In this document: positions 1 to 53,890 of the stretch, piece by piece | Numbering within the stretch: position 1 is the first letter of the stretch | How the letters are laid out: every line of letters begins with the position of its first letter | NCBI GenBank assembly: GCA_008360955.1 | Contig: LUCM01009167.1 | Span: 147,280 to 211,279, forward strand | DNA from: Fasciolopsis buskii | Lineage: Eukaryota; Platyhelminthes; Trematoda; Plagiorchiida; Fasciolidae | Length of the DNA stretch: 64,000 nucleotides | Direction of reading: 5' to 3' | The notes under the pieces: model-generated | What the model was told of the DNA's origin: nothing | What the model saw: the letters and a program-made list of their open reading frames with translations, nothing else | Database searches by the model: none | Program-made: the position numbers and the translations under genes

Positions 1-3000
1 TCCGCGTATACCAAATGCCAGCCCAGGTCGCCTCGTGACTCGGTTCGAAATCCGCCCGGAGTATGGTAGATATGCATTGGCGCCCAATGTGAACAAACCA
101 AATGAATCAGCTGATTAGGGCTTTCAACCGTTTATTCTTGAGTTGATAGTCGTTAGCGTGAGAATACCACCACTCGGTTTCATTTTCTGAGGTCAAATGA
201 GAGTTGGATTATCTTTTTGCAGGTAAAAATTTAAAGGCTATCATTGCACATGACTACCTCTTCAAATTTTTCAGTTGACTAGCCTGAATGGGGCTTGTAA
301 ATATCTCAGCAAAAACGACGCGGCAGAAATGCACCAACTCAACATTTGTCTAATTTCGTGCATCGCTAGAGAAAACATCTCAGAATGATAACACAGTTCA
401 AAATGTTAGAAAATCGGTTGGAATCTCATGTCGGTTGTGGACCCAAATTGGGTAAGTTATGGGTAACGGTTCTCCGCGGATCTTGGATGTCCGAATAAAT
501 GTAAAAAATTTGGGAGGATCATCTATTCCGAACAATTGGAATCTATCCCAATCCTGGTACACAACTGTGGTTTGCTTCACTTGATAACAAGCGCTTTAAT
601 TCAAGCCTACTCGAAACATCTGTTAAGGTTATTAATTTATTTAAAAGTTTGGTATATAAATATATATATATATTTACACCGGCCTGAAACCAAGCATAAA
701 GCAAACGCAACAACCGCGAAACCATTCGTAGGCTTCCGGGGAAAATTCTGGGTGAAATGCCCCATTTATAAAATAACGTGACAGTATTGCGACATAATTT
801 CAATGAATTCAAGTAGGAGCAAGGAGCACTAATTAATGTGAAGAATGAATGCAATTTTGACATTTTACTTTATACCTTTAATCTTTTGGTTCTTATTGTA
901 TTCTAAGGCAAAGGAGTGGTGGTCTTCTGATTCGGCCGACGCAGTTGACAAAATTTCATATACTTCCCTTTTCTTCGGTAGAAAACGACCGTTCTCCACG
1001 CGCGTTCTCATCCACGAAATATTTGGAATTTTTCGATTGTGGATTTTTCTCGAACTAAAATTCCTTAAAGGAACGAATGAGAAACCATTAGAATAATTCT
1101 AGTAGAAGCCCATAAGTAAATACCAAATTTACCTGACGCATACGAAAAAAGTTGTCAGAAACTGACTAGAGTCATATGACAGCGATTGTAGCGGTAAGTG
1201 TTGAACTGAAACGGTCGTATCAAATTGGAACTATCTGATTTCGTATTTGACAAACTGTTACTTTTAGGACCAAATGACTGGAAAAAGTAATTAGTGTAGG
1301 CCCAAATAGACCACCTGGTTAGGGTCCACGCGATCCATCGCCCTTGACAATCGCTAAAGGGCAGAAGTGATAGGGCTCAGTGTCGAAGTCATTGGCGTTT
1401 TGCCATTTAAAATTTGTCCTCTCCTTTATCGTTGCTCAAAGTGTTCTCCTGAAGTTGACATCTTAGCACCTCTCGTTGGCTGCTTTATTATTTTTTAGTT
1501 GGTGACTGATGACAGAGCAGACAAAACCAGACGCTAATATAAGGTTATCGGTTGCACAAATTGAATTTAACTGAAATTAGCCCAACCCATCCTTCACGAA
1601 GAGCAGTCTAGGAAAAGCAGCAATAATATAAGAGGCTGGGTACAGTGGGGATTTGTGAAGGTCAATTGCATGCTTTTTTACCAACCGAACCGACAGCGTA
1701 CTGAGCCCTCAGACGGCCTTTTCCGTATACTAGTAATGACTAGGGATAAAAGTACTGGTGATCTACAAAAAGAAAAAGACATTAGGACTGAAATGTCTTT
1801 GTGTTTTTCGTAGGCCTCATTACTTTTAGTTCATTTTATGGCAGTACTAAAACAAAACATGAAATTTTCAGAATGGACTTGCTGTCCTTCGAAACGTATC
1901 AAACAATAAAAATGCACGGCAATGAGAAGACGAAAAAGGACATCAGTACATGTCAAAAGGCCACGGATCAGTTAGCTTTAAGCAAAGTCGAGTCGGGTTT
2001 TGTTATCCTGATAACAAAAAATAGATAGTTGTTGATCATATTTGTACTCGAAAGGTTCAGTTGCCTTTAACAACCGTCAAGGATTGAAAACAGCTAAGGG
2101 CTTTCGACACAGACAGGATTTACCAATCCCGGTAACTAAACGTGTCTGCACTGTTGTTCAGACATTTTTACTACAAATAACTGACGTTTTACGATAATAA
2201 ATATTTATTTCTACTAACCCAGTCAGTCAACCAATCACTGTCTCGTTTAATCAGTAATTTATCATCGTTTCCAGTCGCACATTCACCTACCCGGTGACTC
2301 ACTTATATAGCCAACCAGCCAATTAACCTAGTCCTAGTAGAGCACTGAATTTGCTTGATCAGTAACCAGACCGTAAATCTGTTCGAAACCGAACAAGGTG
2401 TATAAATCATGGAGAAAAACACTGCATTGTGCGATGATTTCAATTATGTAACTTTTCAAGAGTCAGGGACGCAACGCCATCGTTGGTGAACATATACATG
2501 GCCGATGTTTCCGCTACCGTGGACGGCCCTTCCCTTAAAAACTCTTTTCATTTAAACCATCCTGAGTGGTACTTGTATGCCGAGTGACGTCACATGGTTA
2601 TTTGTCCATAAGTGTATATGGGGTTCACACGTACCTGACTGGCTTTGTGAGTTTTGTGTACATAAGTGGTTGGTTTCGCTAAATTAGGATACAGAGAAAC
2701 CGGAGACCTAGTTTTTGTTTTCATCGTCAGCGCTAACTGATGCTGCCAGTTATTTCGTTTTCGACTGACTTCGACAGTTCGGCTCAAATGCTGCAGCCTT
2801 CCACTCCTTTCGTTCCAGTTGATGCATGTGGCGAGGCCACTGATTTCCAAGTACTCTACGTACATGCATTCACGGTATCCCCGGCATTTCGTATTGGTAG
2901 TCTATTGCGTGTCTTGCCACTAAAACGTGGAATACGATCGCTGAGACACTTTCTGGGTGTGATAAAATCTTTCTGTCGTTTGGTAGTGCCCCTTTTTTCG

Positions 3001-6000
3001 TTTGTGTTCCGCAGTCCTTGCCTTTAACGTTGTATTCGCTTTGCCAGTCGCTGCAGCTGTTCTAGTGAATGGCGCAATCGTAGTCCGATGTGCGAATGGG
3101 ATCTTTTGTTCTGACCAGTTTTTTTTCATGGGGTACTACTCTCGTGCAAGTAAAATACGAATGATTTAGTCCTTAAGGCTCCCCTTATGATCTCCGATGT
3201 GCCCGATCCTCGCGATATGTCGAACGAAGCTAACCACCGTTGTCGCTTGTGGACCTGTTTTCTTTCTCTGGCTTTCACTCAGATTCTGTCAAATCAGTTG
3301 TGGCCGCTAGTAGTTAGTGTGAAAGGTACTGTTTAGTTGTCCATTTTCTTTCTGACGTGTGTTGCTGGCTAATGACAGAATCAGTGCTTGTTTAATGCAT
3401 TAAGAGTGAGCCGAATGATAGTTTTTGACACATGGTTGAGTGCGTGTCTTCCTCTTGAATGCCTACGGCAAGGATCTGAATAACATCTGCTACGAAATGC
3501 CGGTCTAGAAACTTTCCGGACTACGACTCCATTATGCGGTTAATCGAGTTGCACTGACAATTCTGCCAACGGAGAAAATCTTTCCTGCGTTTAGATTTCA
3601 TTATCAAAAATGCGTAGTCAGCCTATTTGAGGAAAATGTGTGAAGTCATATTAAAAGCTTTCAAGGATTTCTATTCACTAGTGCAACTGAAATTTTCAGT
3701 GATTGGTGATAAACGGGATACCGTGGGTACACATTCTGACGCACGTCTAAAAATGAAATGAGTAAAATTGCGACAATTAGACGTCAGGGATGATTTATGA
3801 AGACCCCCAGGTACAGCATTACCCTAATTAAGCGTCGGTACTCAGTGCGAACTGTCAATGTGTCTAGAAAGATCGCATTTAAACTCACCAGTTTCACCAC
3901 TTTTCTAGATTGTCGGACTTTACAGGGCAGGAAGAGTCGCTGACTTTAGTTCTCCTAATCTTTTCACACGGTTTCAGTATACTAGTGAAATAGCTAGGTA
4001 TGCAGTCGATAACTGAGTGGGTGGGTAGACCAGGCTTGTGAATTTTTGGTAGTCAGCACACAGACACAAATTCGCATTCAATTATATGTGAACCAAAACA
4101 GACATTGCACACGCACACACATACAAACTTACAGACTGCTCTCTGATACCAATTAGTTTGTAACTACCACCTAGGATTTAAAAACTGGTTTGAAAAAATC
4201 TGCTCACGTTATCCGAAACGTCGGTCATTTGCATCCTCTCAACCAAAAACACTGCGCTGACGACTTCCGGCAAATCGCACCAATAAACCCGCTCCTCTGT
4301 TCGTCACTTTCTTCTTGTGTCCGATATGTAAACAATTTCTCAGATTGCTTGGAATCAATTAAATCTTCACAAACACCATATTTCGTCTATGAATGCATTA
4401 TGTTTTCCATCTTTTCTTTATATGTCAGACTTAATAATTTTCTAAATGAATCCCACGGACACCAGTTTTGCTGTGAAACGTGAGCTTGTTTGAGTAAACA
4501 AGTATACTGCCCAACTCATCCTCTTTTAAAAAAATATTTTCACACAGAAACTGCCTTATTTCATTTGCAGCCCTGGTTGAAATTTTCGCCGTCTGCTTCA
4601 TCATTATCCTTTGATTGAAGTGTGTTCGTCTGGTTTTATAACCTAATCCCACGCAAAGCTCACTAACCAGTACAGACGAAAATATGCCATCGATCGATAG
4701 TGAAAGACAATGTCTGGTTCCATTCTTCGTTCGATAATCGGCCCACTTGTTCATTATCTGCGCGAAGCAGCTCATAAAACTAGTTCAACCCATTGGGCTG
4801 ATCGTTGAACGGAACGAGCCGCGGAAATAAATATTTTCGATCAATATTAAGGATAAAAGTATCCGTGACAAATGCAATCACGTGGGTAGCGACGAACACT
4901 GACTGACGGAAACTTGGTACTAGCTGCTTTTGATTTTCTTCGTGTACGCTCATGACCATGGGACAAGAGAATCGAATTTGTGACAGGCAGTTTCCAGTTC
5001 TCCCTTGCAGAAAAAATGCCCGTGCTTTAAATGAGTCGGCAATCACTCCTGAGCTGCTGGTGGTCAGCCAGAACTTTGTCCAACTATGAGGTAAAAAGCA
5101 TTTTCTCCAGAATACTGGCGGAACATTTTGGGTAAAGTCAGGACTACCACTTTCCGAAACCGAAATCCACTATCGAAAACAGCTGACATGATCAGGTGAT
5201 TATTAAATAAATTCATCAGGACAAATACTTTGAGCAATTGCAAAAATAACTTTGTTTTCAAAAATAGTCCAATGCAACCAATTTTCCGGGTAGCCTGAAT
5301 TGCCGGCCGCCTGATCCGCCAACTAGTAGTACACGAATTTCAAAACGAAACTTTCCGGTGCAATTTTATAATTCTGCTTAAATAACTAAGTTACTGAAAC
5401 GGCATAAAAATTACTGGTATTCTCTTTCGTGTTGCCTTTGCTTTAGTGCTTAATGAATTCGCAGCATTGCATGATGATTACCACTAGTGGAAGACTACCA
5501 AAGGCGGAAATGACCGATGGTCTTGGGAACAGAATACGCGTTTAGGCCTTGAAACCTCGATCGCTTCATGACTCGAAAAGTTGATTTTCGTAGTTATCTA
5601 TATATAAATTCGTACTTTAAAACAAAGCAACCTTTGTTTTTCGTATGTAAAATACTACAGCTTGAACTGGGATCCTAGTCCTTCATTATTTGACCAGATG
5701 TTCGGTGACTTCTTCAGAATAGATGAAGCCCCCACTATTTAATTTCACTGTGTTAAGTGACACCAAATTGCCCGGGCTGTGCAAAAGCACTCCTTCACTC
5801 TTATTGGCCTCACATTTCACGATAGGGTAACCACAAGATTTGAAATAACTGACAGAATAAAATCATGAGATTGTAAAATGATTCCATGTGATTATCGAAC
5901 GGCTGCCCAGAGTAAATTAGTGCCGATGGATACAACCACTTTACTGGACTCCAAAATCAGGAAAACTTGGCCACCAGTTCATTACTGTGCTCAGGCACCA

Positions 6001-7859: not shown

Positions 7860-7954
7860 TTTTCATGAAATAATTCACCATGTGATATGATCGGTCAACT
7901 GAGCATAAAGAAAGGATGGAAGCACTGTACAGCTCTTTCATCCTTGATAGGAAT
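7860..7954 (-). repeat. SINE-2 tail, copy near the tRNA-like head
   Basis: This copy of the approximately 95-bp tail matches the one at 8261-8359 in the same orientation, with only a few differences. One difference is CATT, present once here and repeated in the other copy. Both contain GTACAGTGCTTCCATCC on the minus strand. The repeat period is about 401-405 bp. Confidence 0.85.
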
Positions 7955-8260
7955 GATGAGCAGTGCTGCATGTGAACCGCGCCCGAACTGAGACGCGAAC
8001 CCGGGACGAACGATTCTGAGTCGAACGCCTTAGCCATTTCGCTACCGGACAGGCTCTGAACGGTTTGTTGAACTTCACCACATGATGTTGCACCTATCCG
8101 TGACTGATTTACACGGTTACTGTCCGCTAGCTCACAGCGATCGACCCCTACTCCTACTGGTAGATGACTTCTCTGCAGGTAGCCTAAGTACGACGAAGGC
8201 TTTGGATATGACCAACAGAGCTTGATTACTTGGTACATGTTAGTAGTAGGAGATTGAATG

Positions 8261-8359
8261 TTTTCATGAAATAATTCATTCACCATGTGATATGATCGGT
8301 CAACTGAGCATAAAGAAAGGATGGAAGCACTGTACAGCTGTTTCATCCTTGATGGGAAT
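8261..8359 (-). repeat. SINE-2 tail, second copy of the direct repeat
   Basis: This copy lies upstream of the tRNA-like head when read on the minus strand. It ends where the sequence changes to unrelated DNA after GATGGGAAT. Together with the copy at 7860-7954 it makes a direct repeat framing the tRNA-like part. That arrangement fits a tandem dimer of an approximately 400-bp unit whose first monomer is truncated. Confidence 0.85.
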
Positions 8360-8360
8360 T

Positions 8361-10849
8361 ATCCTTTTGGTGTACCTCGAATGCCTTACAAATGATAGTA
8401 TTTTCACGCTTCCACATTGCGAAGAAACTAACTGAACATCGATGGTCGTTATAGCTCTACCAAATCAGTTGTTCTCTTCATACGCTGAACGACAAATTTA
8501 CACTATTTGTTCAAAGATTAAGTTTGCTGGTTGCTCACCACATGGGACACCGATTAGAAGCTGCAGAAATCACATCCCCGAGGATGCCAAACTTTCGGTC
8601 ACCAGTGTTCAGTTTTATTGCTGGGTTTTTAAGTGAATTGCATTTATTACGTAAGCAAAAGAAACGCGCATTAACATTTGGGACATCTCCAACGAACACT
8701 GAACGATCGTTGGAAAGAATATTGGATTACTGAATTGCCAGTGTGAGCAGTAGAATATAATAATCTGTGCGAAATTATTAGTCATAGTAAGTGGGAAACA
8801 ACCGTGCAAAGCTTACATGGATTCTCAAAGGTGAGTTGAATTCTACTACCGCTGAGTGAACGTGTCAAATATTGTTGACAAATTTGCAGTTGGACTCAGC
8901 CGAGTAATAAATACAACTTATCTAGTGAAATTTACGCAAATTCCACACGGATTTGTTCGTATTATCACTTGGCTGACTGTAAAAGATTCACTTCGTCAAC
9001 GTAACATTTCCTAGCGAGACTCTTGAACCCAACCTATTTTACAAACAGAAGCCTGTTTGTAAAATTTGGTAAGAAAAACTATTCGTCCTTTTCTTTCTCC
9101 CCACCCCGTCAACTGTTGTAGTTCTTCCAGTGCGATGCGTATTACGGTACAATCCATTTTTTTCGGTAGAGCTATGTAATTTGTGTCCTTCCTTGCAAGA
9201 CGTTTGTCTAATGAGCAATGCTGGGATAGCAAATGTATGTTAACCATCAACGGTCGGAAGAAGAAAAATCTCAAAGCCATGATTCGGTAGGGCGAATATA
9301 CATAAAAATCTCATCCAAATCGGATTTTGAACATGAGTTTCTGTAGCGTTTACTTTCGCCAATTGTCCTCGACCATCGACTCATTTTCCGAACGCATTCT
9401 GATTAACCCTGAGGCATGTTGTGAAAATTTTGGTGAAGTAAAAACAGACTTTGTCTGTGTATGTCTGCGCGCGTTCGCTTGAAGTGATTCAATGTGACGA
9501 GTTTTCTCGAACCTTATTACTTTCTCGGTCTTTTTAAGGGACCAGCTCTAGCTTTAACCGAATGAGCGTCATTGTAACAAGTCGACATGCGTTCGTATTG
9601 TGTTGGCGTCCAGGAATGAGACACTTAGTGGGATACGTGCGTGTTTCAAACGTCACTAGAATGCATGATATCGTGCATATCACATGCCGATGAGTCCGCA
9701 ATTCCATGCAAAGTTATCCTACGGATTAAGGTGGTGGTGACAGTGTGTGTCGATGTTGTTGAGGTAATCAAAGAAAGCATCCGGGTCGTGATGGAATCCA
9801 TTTGTGTAACGCCCCTGCACAAGCTAGCGCATTGACGACATCCATCGAGTTCGGTAGCTTTTCAAAGATAAACTAGGCATGCGCTTTTTCGCATGCGCGT
9901 AAGGGTTCTGTTCATTTATGATTAGGACAGTTGTATGATCAACAAGGAATCGTCGTCTTGAAACCCACCACTTGATGATATCACTGGATAGCAACATTTA
10001 GACGTATATGGCGGTACCAACCTCCCTCTAATTAATCAAATCATAAACTGTAGCTTCGATCATATCGGACCAGTTCAACCCTACGAGAGCTTGTATGGCC
10101 AAACATTAGTTATTTACTCAATGACTTTTTTTATCTGAAAACAACTTAAAATCTTAAATCAATACTTTAGATAAATATTTGCATTATCCAAGCCTCTACT
10201 GATCACGGTGGGGGTAATGTGAAAAATAAACTCATCCGGCGCATCCATTTGGTTGAATTATCATCTAATTTGATATTCTTAAATGAGCACCAATCACAGT
10301 TTCCGCAATCAAGTCCATCTTTAGAATGTCCTGGATTAGACGAAAAACAGTTATTCCTCAATAAAATTATCACGGGCCAGCAAAATTGTTCTTCCTGTTT
10401 GTTTAGTTTTACTCAAATAAATAGAAAACACTACAGCATTATTCAAACAGTGTGGTTTACAACGGAGGTCTTCCAGGGGCAGCACTAAAATAGGTCTAAT
10501 GAACTACAGCTCATTTGTATTCTAGTCCTGTGCACTGAGGCCAGTCGCTTACGAACCTTTGTAAGATGAAATCCGCAAACTCTTACAAACATTTTGTTGA
10601 ATCCTTACAGATTATTTTGATGTCACAGTTAGTAGCAAATAAAAAACAATCTTTTCCACGTCCTGTTTATCTGAAGTTATGTTTTGTGACTAGAATTTCA
10701 AAGTCCGCCCTAGAGTAATGCCATCGGATACTGCCACTTTCCAGAACATAGCAACTTTCGGTTGAATATTTTTGTTAACCAATAGGAATGAACACTGCCG
10801 AACAACCATACTGATCATGATGACGCTTCTCATTTCGCAGTTGCTAATA
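8361..10849. other. Unassigned DNA, no recognisable gene
   Basis: No conserved domain, RNA or transposon was recognised. Short frames at 9011-9280 (minus) and 10219-10488 (plus) look no better than chance and have no recognisable motif. A small perfect hairpin with 7-bp arms (GCATGCG and CGCATGC) lies near 9880-9899 and has no assigned role. Confidence 0.55.
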
Positions 10850-10854
10850 TCCCT

Positions 10855-11037
10855 AATACTAAAAGTAGTACTGGTACAACTACTTAAACTACTATCAATA
10901 ATATTAATGATAATGCCACTACCACTAATACTAACATTGCTAAAAACACCACTGTTAATGTTACTACCACTAACACTTACACTATCACTAGTATTACCGC
11001 TACTATGAATACTAACACTAATACTAATGTTCGTTAG
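10855..11037. repeat. Degenerate ACT/AAT trinucleotide array
   Basis: About 180 bases are built mostly of ACT, AAT and CTA triplets with many substitutions, so this is an old microsatellite. It produces a misleading 166-codon minus-strand ORF rich in Ser, Ile and Val, and a Leu-rich plus-strand ORF. Neither is a gene. Confidence 0.75.
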
Positions 11038-12180: not shown

Positions 12181-12185
12181 GCTAC

Positions 12186-12224
<39 letters not shown>

Positions 12225-12241
12225 TACTGCTACTACTACTA

Positions 12242-12276
<35 letters not shown>
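12181..12276. repeat. ACT trinucleotide microsatellite
   Basis: About 32 near-perfect ACT/CTA triplets with a few ACC, AAT and GCT variants. The frame running through it would encode polythreonine, which is typical of a simple repeat and not evidence for a gene. It is younger than the degenerate array at 10.85 kb. Confidence 0.9.
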
Positions 12277-18873: not shown

Positions 18874-19271
18874 ACACAGTCTAACTGTACAAACGCACTC
18901 TTCCGGTCATGCTGATTCGGTAGAAAATTACACGATCGCCACTGCTCACGGTTCACTGACATATCTTTCATTGTCCCCAACCAACTTGTTAACGGGTCTT
19001 TCGGACCCCAACCACGAAGACGTGAGACACCTACTTTATCTAAGCTAGCTGTACATCTTATCATTTCACGTTGCCACGTCATCTGTTGACCTCCACGTGG
19101 CTTCTTCCATTCCTTGTGAGGAACCCAGAATAAGGTATGATATGGTAGACAAGTTTTTGCCATATGCAACGCGTGACCCAATCAGCGTAGTCTGCTAAGT
19201 TTCATACGCTGAAATAAGATATTCTGATCACAGGCGCCTAGTATTAGATTCCTGACCTCCACGTTACTCAC
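18874..19271 (-). mobile_element. Inverted near-identical copy of the RTE 3' coding segment
   Basis: The minus strand here matches plus-strand 21495-21892 over 398 bp with about five differences by eye. It encodes the same C-terminal block (GHALHMAKTCLPYH, PRGGQQMTWQREM, GWGPKDPLTSW). Homology stops abruptly at both ends: the RTE 3' UTR is missing at 18874, and at 19271 the sequence joins directly to the endonuclease part of the plus-strand element. Both copies carry the same TGA in place of the expected Trp in the RLRWLGH block. The duplication therefore arose from an already dead element, or the two have since been homogenised by gene conversion. Confidence 0.9.
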
Positions 19272-19735: not shown

Positions 19736-20460
19736 GCAACAGCTACGAACAGAAACAATCCGAAGAACTAAGAACTCCGACTAGCAGCAATGTAGACGAG
19801 CATTGGGATCAAATTAAGCAGGCGATGCATTTGGCAGCAGATTTCGCCTGTGGTCCTAGGTCTAGCGTTCATCAAAGACACTGGATCTCGCAAGAGTCGC
19901 TGGGTCTAATGGAGTAAAAAGGCCAGCTCCCTAACTGCAAGGAAGTGAACAAGATGCGTTGACAGTTGTCGGGTCAGGTGACCAATAGCCCTAAGAATGA
20001 CCGTGAAAACTGGTGGGTTAAGTTGGCCGAAGAGATAGAAGTAGCGGCCCCTTCGGTTAACAGTCAAGGCTTATTTAAGCTTATACGTAACAGCGGTGGG
20101 CAGCGAAATTCGGTTAGCGAAGTCGTGTGCGTTAGGAGTGGAGAGCTCAGCCAAGACAACAAAATCTGGACCGTTGGGCTGAGCACTTCAAGGATCAGTT
20201 TAACTGGCCACACGCTAACGTATTTAGGCCGACGTCTGCAGCTGCGAACCCTCGGGAGGTGTCTGTTTACCCCTCCCCTCCTCAAAGAAAGCGGAGGTAG
20301 AGTCGAATAATCGGCTTCTAAGGAGGGGAAAAGCGACCGATCCCAGCGAACTTGCTACAGTTCCTTTTAAATTGGGTGGAGAAAACCTGATGAAAGCACC
20401 TACCTCCTTGCTTCGTGATATCTGGAACGAGGACAGCATTCCGTTATCTTGAGGCGAATC
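19736..20460 (+). pseudogene. RTE linker between endonuclease and reverse transcriptase
   Basis: The reading here keeps the character of the RTE linker: HWDQIKQAMHLAADFACGP, then HWISQESLGLME, and NDRENWWVKLAEEIEVAAP from the ORF at 19966-20310, followed by LFKLIRNSGGQRNSVSEV. At least two stops (around 19916 and 19960) and frame changes interrupt it. The linker has no catalytic function of its own but confirms that the flanking endonuclease and reverse transcriptase pieces belong to one element in one orientation. Confidence 0.75.
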
Positions 20461-20461
20461 A

Positions 20462-21290
20462 TTGATTGTACCCATCTTCGAGAAGGGCACACGAAGTGAC
20501 TGTAGCAATCATCGTGGGATTAGTTTAATTCCGATAGTTACTAAGGTGTTAGCTTCGATGAGGCTGCGCCACTTGACACCGATTCGCGAGAGTAACATCC
20601 GCGACCAGCAGACCGGATTTTGTCCAGGTCGAGGTTGCATCGACCAGAAACTCAGTCTCCGACACATACTCGAGGCGTGCCACACACGAGACCACCCTAC
20701 AATCGTAGTCTTTCTGGACTTGGAAGGCGCGTTCCACTCAGTGTATCAGACAATACTATTCAGTGCTCTCCACCGGAAGGGTGTGCCATCGAAGTTCGTG
20801 AACTTGTTGCGAGCATTGTACTTGCATACCCATGGTCGCGTGAGGGGTATACGGTGAATTATCAAGTTCATTCGAAACGGCTAGTGGCGTTCGACAAGGG
20901 TGCCCCATCTCTCCATGCCTGTTCAATTTCGTCACGGACGAGATGATGGAAGATGCTTAGGGAGGTCTCCAAGATGTAGAAGTCGAACGGGAAACTGAAG
21001 GGAAGCTGTGTGATCTAGATTACGCAGACGGCATTGTATGCCTTTTCGAGTCTGTGGGCCATGCACGACGCGCAATAGGTAGACTCTCGAGTTCTGTAGC
21101 TCTGTTTGACATGTGTTTTGCACCTCCAAAGTATAAAGTGCTCTTGCAGGAGTGGACGACAGCGGTACTTAACTTGGTACTGGATGGCGAGGAACTCATG
21201 ACTGTGGACCGTTTCACCTACCTTGGTAGCTACGTGTCCAACGACGGTAGCTCGGGAGTGGAGGTAAACACGTGTATCTTGAAGGCTTGA
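20462..21290 (+). pseudogene. RTE reverse transcriptase domain, catalytic motif degraded
   Basis: The reverse transcriptase would copy the element RNA at the nicked target. Visible blocks in order are VPIFEKGTRSDCSNHRGISL, QQTGFCPGRGCIDQ, motif A VVFLDLEGAFHSV (Asp codon at 20717-20719), motif B GVRQGCPISPCLFNF from 20889 in another frame, and motif C LDYADGIVCLF. Motif C reads YADG (21021-21032) where an active enzyme has YADD, so the second metal-binding Asp has become Gly. A frameshift lies just before 20847. Stops occur at 20958-20960 and 21288-21290, the latter where an Arg codon is expected before AAYDELKHMWRW. The domain is certainly inactive. Confidence 0.9.
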
Positions 21291-22025
21291 GCAGCTTACG
21301 ATGAACTCAAACACATGTGGCGTTGGGCTAATACTTCACTGAATTTGAAATTTCGTGTGCACTGCGCCGAAGTGCGTTCGGTTGTGTTGTACGGTTGCGG
21401 GACGTGGAGTATGCGTGTGGGCGATGTTCGTTGGTTGGAGGTTTTTGACCATCGATGTCTACGTAGTAGGTCTAGGATTGGATGCGGTGACCTGGTGAGT
21501 AATGTGGAGATCAGGAATCTAATACTAGGCGCCTGTGATCAGAATATCTTATTTCAGCGTATGAAACTTAGCAGACTACGCTGATTGGGTCACGCGTTGC
21601 ATATGGCAAAAACTTGTCTACCATATCATACCTTATTCTGGGTTCCTCACAAGGAATGGAAGAAGCCACGTGGAGGTCAACAGATGACGTGGCAACGTGA
21701 AATGATAAGATGTACAGCTAGCTTAGATAAAGTAGGTGTCTCACGTCTTCGTGGTTGGGGTCCGAAAGACCCGTTAACAAGCTGGCTGGAGACAATGAAA
21801 GATATGTCAGTGAACCGTGAGCAGTGGCGATCGTGTAATTTTCTACCGAATCAGCATGACCGGAAGAGTGCGTTTGTACAGTTAGACTGTGTTCCATGTG
21901 TTGGCTGCAGCAGCATCTTATCTTTTCCCGCCTGTGTAAGTCCACCCCCTGTTCCCCTTGGATATCCACTTTTTATATACTTCTGTAACCTTGGGGAAAA
22001 GGCAGCGATCAATGGGACTGTTTAA
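21291..22025 (+). pseudogene. RTE C-terminal region
   Basis: This region continues the reverse transcriptase frame: MWRWANTSLNLKFRVHCAEV, SVVLYGCGTWSMRVGDVRWL, EVFDHRCLRSRSRIG, then after a TGA at 21582-21584 LGHALHMAKTCLPYHTLF and PRGGQQMTWQREM. The pattern after the RT thumb is characteristic of RTE elements in parasitic flatworms. The last frame runs to a TAA at 22023-22025, but the true end of the protein is probably near CNFLPNQHD (about 21866); what follows looks like 3' UTR. The 21495-21892 part is duplicated in inverted orientation at 18874-19271. Confidence 0.88.
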
Positions 22026-23812: not shown

Positions 23813-23899
23813 TCACTACTAATGCCGTTGCTACTACCACCACTACTACTATTACTACTACTACTACTACTACTACTACTATTACTACTACTACTACTG
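23813..23899. repeat. ACT trinucleotide microsatellite
   Basis: About 29 triplets, mainly ACT with ATT, ACC and GTT variants. On the minus strand it creates a polyserine ORF (61 codons), which is a simple-repeat artefact. Confidence 0.88.
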
Positions 23900-44093: not shown

Positions 44094-44190
44094 TCATCCT
44101 TGTTAGGGTGAAACAGCTGTACAGTGCTTCCATGGTTTCTTTATGGTGAGTTGTGCGATGATATCACATGGTGAATTATTTCATGAAAAT
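44094..44190 (+). repeat. SINE-2 tail fragment, plus orientation
   Basis: This matches the tail of the 7.7-8.36 kb element in opposite orientation. It shares GAAACAGCTGTACAGTGCTT and TCACATGGTGAATTATTTC, with several substitutions between. No tRNA-like head is visible upstream, so this is a 5'-truncated copy or a free fragment. Confidence 0.8.
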
Positions 44191-46255
44191 GTGATATAGT
44201 TTGTTGTCTAGAGGTTGTGGAGTTTTGAATATGCCACCCACTCAAGAGTGCACTGACAGTGAGTCTCATCTTGGTGAATGCCTCAAACATTGCTTACTCA
44301 AATGCTGCAATCAAAGACACAACTCCATCAACTTCGAAGTTGTTAACTTAAGGTTATTCACTTCCCAATTTTACAAAATCTACGATAAGCGTACTGTCCA
44401 TTAGTAGGCCTTGTCATATACTCACTGATCGAATATTCACCGCTCAACAATTAACCCAGCACTGTTATGCGCATGGAAGACCAAGCATTCTTCTGATGCT
44501 AGGTACTGTGTTGGCTTTCTGCTACGTCGAGAGAACTGTACTAAAGCATCCATTATTGAGGAATGGTTCGTTTTTTCATGTATATTGTCCATCCTCGCGT
44601 TGCTTTTGAGCTGTCTGCGGTAGGCTGCTACAAAAATGTCTTATTCATTTCCTTTCCAATCTTCCACGGAACATTTTTTGTAGAATGTTTTCTTAATTCT
44701 AACCGACGGCAGAAGAGGACTCCTTTTAAAAAAGGATGCAGATTTAAGGTGCATCGATGATATCACCGTACTTAGTGACCGTGCACAGGTGGCTCGATGC
44801 ACTTTCAAATGTCTGATGATTAACCTATCCAGGGATGACAGAAATGTCGCTTTTTCAAAATACCAGCAGTCCCTTCAAGGTTAGCAGTGACTTGTAACTG
44901 TACTTTACTTTTGCGGTGGTTATCTGCTCATTTACATTTGGAGCTTCATTACACCTGAAGGAGTTGCAAGAACCAAATGCACATCTCTGCAGTTTGCTAC
45001 ACTCGTGATACCGCGGACGGTTTCTAGCTTTGTCACAAGCAATAAGATTCGATGTCATGGTTCGTGACAACTTGATGTAATTTTGAGTAGCATAATCTCG
45101 GTGGTAATCACGTGGATAAGGTCATGTCGTTTAGACATCATGCATGCCAGTTCCAATTCTCCCAAAGCCGGCCAAATTGCACGTGGTAATAACTCGTTTG
45201 ATGAAAACCAGGTTATGAAACTGATGTACTTTTTCCTTTAATAACGGAAAGAAAAAATAAACGATTAAACGATTCACACTGAGAATGCTCAGCGTCTGCT
45301 TACGTCCGACTATCAGTTTTTGACAGGAGTCGCTTGGTTTTTATGGGAACATCAGACAAACATTAACGTGGTATATGTTCGCGGACCAGATGATAATAAT
45401 CGATCTCATACTGAAGCATTCGATCTACACAGGGAGATGGCATATGTTTCCGGAACGTGTGTTCAGCTTCCGGCTCTGAATACTGTTTTTCCGAGCACTA
45501 GTGTACCAAGACGAAACGATACCGAAATCAAGTAATAAATTGGTCTCCAGTTGTAAAGAAGTCAGACTCGACTTCTCTAGTGTCTGGTGCTTTGGGGATT
45601 TGGGCCTGCAAGGGGGATAGAAATCTTAAGGTGAGAATGCTTGGACTGGTGAATCTTACTCGAATTCATTATCGCAAAAGCTGAACGATTTGCCTAAAGT
45701 TCAAAAGTCTAGTAAAAATATTCCCGGTTCGCGGTGTCGACGTTTTGGTGCAAACCCTAAACCGATAAACTCCAACTGTTGTGAAAGATGTTTGTATGGC
45801 TATGAAAAGAAAATATCCTTATTTTTGTTAAAGTCTTGAAAAAAGCTAGTGATGGAACAAGGATTTCTTCCCACATTGTTTTTCCTCACAAATAATCTAT
45901 GCATATTAAAATGTTGGTTGGTTTTTAGTTTCTCTTTGCCGTCCCGTTCCGCTGAGTTCAGGTACAAATCTATCCAATCATAATTGGACAAATTGCCTAT
46001 TTGGTCACACCTAATTTGCCGGGACCCTTAACGGATCAGCGGGTTTTGTACGACTTCGATGTTCAGTCAGGCAATAATTTTACGCTGCGGAAATCGGAAC
46101 GGCTTTCGTACCCGCACATTTTTGCCGGGGTGGGTGGGTTTTGCTTCATACAGTCTTTTCGAATGTGACAGATAAAATAGGATGCTAAGGTGAGGTCAAG
46201 CATTCTACGAGGCAATTTTACATCCCACACAAATAGCTCAAAATGAATTCGATAG
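44191..46255. other. Unassigned DNA, no recognisable gene
   Basis: No recognisable feature was found. A Cys-rich frame at 44201-44404 and a frame at 45320-45535 are short and unmatched. Confidence 0.5.
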
Positions 46256-47891: not shown

Positions 47892-48150
47892 CTCTTTTGA
47901 TGATCCAAACGCGGTACCCTGCACCAGTGCACATCACTAAAACACAAACCAGATAAAACAACAACCAGGAAATTTGATAAAATGTTTCGGGTTGTAAAAG
48001 TGTGGCATAGTTTGAATGGACGAAATTAGGTCCGCAGGAACAAACCGGCTGACCTTGTTTGCACAACTGTGGTTAATCGTTCTCTGTCCCCGTTATAGAA
48101 ATATATATATCGAAGCAGGAAGTAGTATCTGGATGCGTGAACAAAATTTG

Positions 48151-48208
48151 CCCGGGAGCACACGACCGGTTTCGCGGTTATCGTCGCTCGTCAGGTATGC
48201 GAACCCGA
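48151..48208 (-). ncRNA. Type I hammerhead ribozyme, small dimer-forming variant
   Basis: On the minus strand the order is as follows. Stem I 5' strand: CGGG, TTC, GCATAC. Core: CTGACGA (48194-48188), fitting CUGANGA. Stem II: GCG and CGC around an 8-nt loop. Core: GAAA (48173-48170). Then CCGG, and TC with predicted cleavage after C at 48164. Stem I 3' strand: GTGTGC, T, CCCG. GCATAC pairs with GTGTGC over 6 of 6 positions (one G-U), and CGGG pairs with CCCG beyond a small internal loop. The stem III segment is only ACCGGT, self-complementary and too short for a hairpin. Such minimal stem III variants are known from Penelope-like retroelements, where they act as dimers, and could process element RNA. 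The fold is inferred from pairing by eye; activity is not shown. Confidence 0.8.
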
Positions 48209-48219
48209 TGCTCTCTTTT

Positions 48220-48221
<2 letters not shown>

Positions 48222-48255
<34 letters not shown>
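48222..48255. repeat. TA microsatellite beside the hammerhead
   Basis: About 17 perfect TA units. It lies 14 bp from the 5' end of the minus-strand hammerhead. A short TA tract (48104-48113) lies on the other side, so the ribozyme block is bracketed by TA repeats. Confidence 0.9.
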
Positions 48256-53635: not shown

Positions 53636-53890
53636 GCAAGAGATTACGCGGTTTGCGACATCATTCGCCACGTGGTACAATCGCCCAATTCACCATTAAG
53701 AAACCATGGAAGTAAGACACAGCTGTTTCATTCTTGTCGTGAATCATCAATAAATAATATCCACCGCGCTCTAACTGGGCGAGAAGGTGAAAGCTGCGAT
53801 TGTGAAACGAACTTCATAGTCATTTGGTAAACTCGACTGGCTCTCAATCGCTTTTTGGACTTCATCACAGCCCAAAGCACCGAGTTTTTT
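53636..53890 (-). mobile_element. Decayed SINE-2 copy, minus orientation
   Basis: Compared with the 7.7-8.1 kb copy, the same parts appear in the same order: AGAGATTACG near the outer end, the tail (ACAGCTGTTTCATTCTTGTC), the tRNA-like region, and the segment ending GACTTCATCACA (GAACTTCACCACA in the other copy). Substitutions are frequent and the Pol III boxes are lost, so it is old. The minus-strand ORF at 53771-53971 is only the translated repeat. Confidence 0.65.

Follow-up and report, generated by a model that had tools for sequence, protein, structure and literature searches.

Metazoan non-LTR retrozymes, as far as the accessible text of Cervera and de la Pena (2020; PMC7229834) goes, carry a type I hammerhead in head-to-tail units of 170-400 nt and give a self-paired predicted circle, and platyhelminths are named there among their carriers. 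The accessible part of a review (PMC7761336) reports for them no conserved motif which would point to an autonomous helper element. In Schistosoma mansoni, SMalpha and the W-elements have active type I hammerheads, with an extremely short stem III in the W-elements (PMC8490949, accessible text). Amphibian satellite 2 and axolotl HHR_Amex1 have a helix III of one pair with a palindromic tetraloop, and are described in part of PMC7229834 as weak alone and efficient as dimers. Passages of PMC6155905 and PMC7761336 describe dimer action of helix-III-poor hammerheads in newt and propose it for PLEs. Meanwhile, reverse transcription of an Anolis PLE is reported to begin internally in its RNA, and its insertion sites to be AT-rich (PMC11167929, accessible text).

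A repeat family in the genome of the fluke Fasciolopsis buskii fits the published metazoan non-LTR retrozymes, judged by its sequence, and resembles the accounts accessible to us in hammerhead type, unit layout and predicted circle. It differs from them in a helix III without a loop, a trait which the search pattern imposed on the copies counted. It also differs in 3' ends which lie in TA microsatellites, at two unit positions, and in inverted twin arms, features undescribed in the accessible text of PMC7229834. Like amphibian satellite 2 and HHR_Amex1, in the portion describing them, the fluke motif has a single pair in helix III, closing a palindrome, albeit in a different host. SMalpha and the W-elements are likewise trematode repeats with type I hammerheads, a likeness of description rather than of sequence, and unlike the fluke family they are not linked to TA targeting in the accessible part of PMC8490949. 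The copy from which the fluke family was recognized lies in the window, by which is meant the whole 64,000-nucleotide stretch analysed here. Minimal hammerheads of PLEs reportedly have a diminished helix III and have been proposed to act as dimers, and in these two respects the fluke motif is like them; in contrast to PLEs, no PLE reading frame or pseudo-LTR was found with the fluke's 317-bp units in a partial search.

The features of the window which concern this family are the following.

48153..48207, minus strand: type I hammerhead ribozyme motif with minimal helix III (sequence, structural descriptor, simulations, sub-threshold Rfam HH9 match of 25 bits)
48195..48200, minus strand: 5' strand of stem I, GCATAC, pairing with 48158-48163
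48158..48163, minus strand: 3' strand of stem I, GTGTGC, pairing with 48195-48200 (for both strands, 261/288 inner pairs form in 48 distinct genomic hammerheads)
48174..48187, minus strand: stem II, 3 bp with an 8-nt loop (sequence)
48165..48170, minus strand: ACCGGU palindrome at the place of helix III, proposed to form a dimer helix (sequence; the dimer is not the lowest fold by energy)
48164..48164, minus strand: C preceding the predicted cleavage (hammerhead anatomy)
48111..48221, minus strand: probable 5'-truncated single retrozyme copy, TA tracts excluded, unit phase ~259 to 52 (BLAST, genomic copies)
48222..48255, no strand: (AT)17 microsatellite at the 5' end of the element, its proposed target (repeat and AT-run scans)
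48101..48110, no strand: (AT)5 at the 3' end of the element (AT-run scan, family statistics)
708..747, plus strand: 3' half of a related hammerhead repeat, now decayed (87.8% identity to locus L201 across 41 nt, E 8e-9)

The first-pass annotation described a complete compact hammerhead ribozyme on the minus strand. Sequence inspection finds the core elements where it had placed them and in the right order: CUGACGA at 48194-48188, stem II formed by GCG (48187-48185) with CGC (48176-48174), GAAA at 48173-48170 and the predicted cleavage dinucleotide U48165-C48164. Its two long-range helices are present as well, stem I pairing GCATAC (48200-48195) with GTGTGC (48163-48158) and the outer helix pairing CGGG (48207-48204) with CCCG (48156-48153). 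Having CUGANGA, stem II, GAAA, a cleavage UH and an open-ended stem I, the motif is by sequence a genuine type I hammerhead, and its exact core pattern occurs 1,220 times (632 + 588) in the 703-Mb genome, whilst the reversed pattern occurs 0 times. Complete is an overstatement, however, as helix III is represented by the loop-less palindrome ACCGGU and the status of a stand-alone ribozyme is unsupported. Since GAAA is followed by CCGG and then UC, helix III of the monomer is limited to one A-U pair. The hammerhead fold of the monomer is calculated at -16.2 kcal/mol, against -23.6 kcal/mol for the best fold, which pairs ACC with GGU and so disrupts the core.

The self-complementarity of ACCGGU suggests action as a dimer, in which, by analogy, two copies could pair over 6 bp as helix III and build two active sites. 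Given its loop-less palindrome, the window motif would probably need a second copy in order to cleave, and no second hammerhead copy lies beside it. The energies do not support the dimer: the modelled double hammerhead, at -41.7 kcal/mol, is less stable than the best cofold (-48.4) and also than two unassociated monomers, each at its minimum (-47.2 together). As a ribozyme, the lone copy in the window is probably idle or nearly so, and it probably serves no function for the host.

That core and helices would seldom coincide at random, as had been claimed, is borne out by a structural descriptor which matches the window at this site alone and gives nothing in 300 simulated windows, the descriptors having been composed after the motif had been seen. 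A relaxed descriptor gives eight matches in 80 Mb of simulated single strand (~0.013 per window, both strands), and a stricter one demanding 2 bp of helix III gives none in 80 Mb. Taken by itself the core says less, as CUGANGAG..CGAAA arises by chance in 17/100 shuffled windows. In a control collection of GTDB contigs the sequence core was matched 14 times, with a stem I of at least 5 bp in 0/14 and of 2 bp at the longest. Viral contigs yielded at least 120 stretches with a loose pattern, of which 3/120 among the matches listed pass a weak structure test, and 0 matches with two specific hammerhead patterns.

A covariance model and covarying genomic copies had been proposed as checks on the motif. 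The former gives a match to Rfam HH9, albeit one below threshold (25.0 bits against a gathering score of 52; E 0.073 for the window). No Rfam match in the window reaches the gathering score, and an Rfam search of the sequence labelled copy B returned no hammerhead. Covariation is absent among the genomic copies, where 1/13 pairs shows a double change in 49 sequences, and in a formal covariation test on these sequences that single double change was equalled in 430/500 shuffles. The inner stem I pairs counted above come from 48 distinct hammerheads among 68 found in 60 loci, and slid versions form 18 to 180 pairs; stem II and helix III are held fixed in the genomic copies by the search pattern. 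Because the pairing of stem I is kept by descent, it gives no independent proof of the fold, and as the copies vary like decaying insertions, covariation speaks neither for nor against it. The low Rfam score and the missing covariation would both be expected of a chance motif without ancestry, but that reading is refuted by the 1,220 exact cores against none reversed, and its probability is negligible.

A 91-nt query returned 930 genomic candidates, and the best 40 scored are 97-100% identical over the full query; the window itself is one of these 40, leaving 39 other genomic copies at 97% or above over 91 nt. The family is arranged as a head-to-tail repeat, mostly of 317-bp units with one hammerhead per unit, within the ~170-400 bp of retrozymes, the window copy itself being single. 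The 317-bp spacing recurs on several contigs, with single spacings of 287 and 719 bp also seen, and one locus (L136) holds six hammerheads at 317-bp spacing. Copies found by pattern are biased toward intact cores. One unit, folded as a circular monomer, reaches -101.4 kcal/mol against -79.5 (sd 5.2) for its shuffles, 0/100 of which are as low (z -4.2), a stable self-paired predicted circle such as retrozymes have. Open frames on this circular unit, followed over two laps, are at most 129 aa and hence too short for a reverse transcriptase. Unit pairs within arrays (n=12) are 0.997-1.0 identical in ten cases and 0.991 and 0.968 in the others, the last, in L194, fitting a single event poorly, whilst pairs between loci (n=108) have a mean identity of 0.967. 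Unequal crossing-over could be an alternative maker of the arrays.

What the first-pass annotation overlooked is that the motif is part of a mobile repeat, present here as a truncated copy with TA microsatellite tracts on either side. The window copy is ~111 nt long, one shortened unit which begins at phase 259 and terminates at the first of two 3' sites favoured by the family, with (AT)17 and (AT)5 at its flanks; BLAST aligns it to a real 317-bp unit (L153) at 95% over 122 nt, TA included. The claim that no other such motif exists in the window stands for intact motifs, but a decayed half of a relative occurs at 708-747 (plus strand). This remnant scores 21 (60 resampled windows reach 15 at most), has an AT run upstream at 660-673 and is closest to the sister family described below. 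We consider it highly probable that the window copy, truncated at its 5' end, belongs to a non-autonomous retrozyme, a small retroelement whose units, mostly of 317 bp, each contain a minimal type I hammerhead. This degree of confidence covers the whole explanation, that is, the retrozyme identity together with the inferred self-cleavage, circularisation and TA-primed reverse transcription.

An earlier idea was that the motif is the remnant of a PLE, a pseudo-LTR hammerhead left by a heavily 5'-truncated insertion; it was set aside when the 317-bp arrays were found and now appears highly improbable. In its favour, PLE hammerheads too are without helix III and may work in pairs (PMC6155905 and PMC7761336, accessible passages), the Anolis PLE combines AT-rich insertion with an internal start resembling the one proposed below for the fluke family (PMC11167929, accessible text), and a GIY-YIG fragment exists in the genome (L226). 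Against this, the repeat unit is just 317 bp, and no Pfam match at E 0.001 was found in any of 51 frames (55 aa or longer) from 44.5-52.5 kb of the window. A genome search for GIY-YIG gave two weak matches, L226 and L225 (150 of 212 candidates scored, intron-less model), and L226 has no hammerhead match or TA run of 10 within 3.1 kb. Nor was a frame with reverse transcriptase and GIY-YIG and a pseudo-LTR hammerhead found for the window copy or the 317-bp units. The GIY-YIG reading frame of L226 (1387-1827, plus strand; Pfam 28.6 bits) presumably resembles a PLE endonuclease, to go by its motif, and has one unnamed protein as a relative (52% over 77%) among five candidates of a protein search. 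L225 contains a hammerhead-family sequence with a damaged core (2084-2197, minus strand) ~0.5 kb from its weak GIY-YIG match, and a weaker hammerhead-family piece ~0.7 kb from that match.

Elsewhere in the window, a reverse transcriptase fragment (20453-20854), 58% identical to a Schistosoma haematobium protein and so suggestive of trematode DNA, is flanked by a 398-nt inverted repeat (18874-19271 / 21495-21892; 99% complementary), and a protein search with 21585-22022 gave no match. Trinucleotide arrays of (CTA)n occupy 12182-12276 and 23831-23898, with similar material at 10826-11031. Another dispersed repeat, ~70-94% alike between copies and present in both orientations, occurs at 7868-7957, 8273-8362, 44105-44198 and 53657-53747.

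The ends of the insertions were followed in 60 loci, the first 60 distinct ones in contig order among 100 listed places of the 1,220, each mapped onto one real unit; in L172 and L184 the contig stops within the locus. Division by hand gave 53 loci of the family to which the window copy belongs (family-1) and seven of a sister family. In family-1 the 3' ends have two preferred sites, ~45-75 and 205-226 nt past the cleavage site: 44/53 fall at phase 45-75, four at 205-226 and five elsewhere. A TA run of at least 8 is met at 45/53 of these ends and is absent in 8/53, compared with 10/1,952 random positions in the same loci. The count was repeated at 12 or longer (40/53), because at the first site the unit's own TATATATA can already account for a run of 8. 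When all arms are counted, the ends touch TA in 48/52 cases at the first site, 15/17 at the second and 3/12 elsewhere.

The 5' sides are less uniform. An inverted second arm, joined 5' to 5' (head-to-head), is found in 15/53 loci, a TA run in 19/53 and neither in 19/53, and of the last group two border N and two have an uncounted arm, too distant or too short (L203, with an 18-nt gap, and L175, with a short arm, were left out of the 15). The 38 copies without an arm have 5' ends scattered over phases 2-283; 19/38 have a 5' TA run, and 16/38 have TA on both sides. Copies range from 94 to 1,242 nt (median 257), with 41/53 no longer than 317 nt and 11/53 longer than 337 nt. In one locus (L186) a 292-nt retrozyme fragment occurs twice, at 1311-1602 and again 1.45 kb away at 2762-3053; the two copies share the 45 nt shown past each end and may reflect a local duplication or an assembly artefact. 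In L180 and L220, a 5-nt duplication (GTGTCGTGTGC) lies in stem I directly after the cleavage site.

These ends bear on what the TA tracts are. They might belong to the element as a tail made by slippage rather than mark its target, which would suit a unit that itself bears TATATATA at the first 3' site and the 19/53 loci whose 5' end shows neither TA nor an arm that was counted. A point against the explanation we favour is that the 3' TA tract of the window copy is 10 nt long. Against a slippage-made tail, half of the non-arm loci have a 5' TA run, most of these on both sides, and ends at the second site enter TA in all but two cases though the reference unit offers only AUAU at that place and lacks a TA run of 8. 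Such a tail is considered unlikely.

Truncation on the 5' side, favoured 3' ends and second arms inverted 5'-5' are what target-primed reverse transcription combined with twin priming usually leaves behind, as in L1. They tell against satellite-like amplification by unequal exchange and extrachromosomal circles, with TA repeats as recombination hot spots, as does the prevalence of copies of one unit or less; tandem arrays of near-identical units would be in keeping with such amplification, which we rate as very unlikely. A further alternative takes the family for an SMalpha-type SINE, which would be moved by pol III transcription and LINE machinery with an incidental ribozyme. In its favour, schistosome SMalpha is SINE-like and has a type I hammerhead (PMC8490949, accessible text), the host group is similar, and a putative B-box-like GGTTCGCATACC was spotted by eye in stem I. 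The (AT)17 upstream of the window hammerhead would leave little room for an A box, however, and the tandem units and stable circular fold fit retrozymes. We regard the SINE reading as rather improbable; SMalpha and retrozymes may be of the same kind, so that this rival is partly a matter of naming.

The sister family (7/60 loci) has diverged from family-1 and shares its hammerhead. Inspected by eye, five of its seven 3' ends lie ~56-59 nt past the cleavage site at ..GAGAAG or a variant, and two loci extend to the place matching the second 3' site; a TA run of 8 near these ends occurs in 0/7. TA motif and TA target thus appear paired in family-1 and both absent in the sister family, in a small sample (n=7).

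Returning to the retrozyme explanation, multimeric transcripts would self-cleave, neighbouring hammerheads pairing through the ACCGGU palindrome, and a host ligase would circularise the unit-length RNAs. With a reverse transcriptase supplied in trans, and a circular or multimeric RNA as template, a nicked (TA)n target could prime by pairing with UAUAUAUA or AUAU in the RNA. The enzyme may exceed one lap, giving arrays, or halt early, giving truncation. Since (TA)n is self-complementary, both target strands could prime, leading to twin priming and inverted arms. The chances seem to us evenly balanced that UA tracts at two reverse-transcription start sites of its RNA direct this retrozyme family to (TA)n microsatellites, that a circular template and a self-complementary target yield truncated, multi-lap and twin-primed copies, and that the sister family, without UA tracts, is not TA-homing.

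In open-licence literature, mostly judged by title and the start of the abstract, we recognized no description of TA-targeted or twin-primed retrozymes. The hammerhead itself is of a known sort, and the integration pattern is the useful part. If the proposal is true, the target choice of a retrozyme would be readable from its RNA and could be checked against candidate helper enzymes. The preferred 3' ends at UA tracts, the TA targets and the inverted arms provide a concrete, testable fingerprint for the helper and for a circular template.
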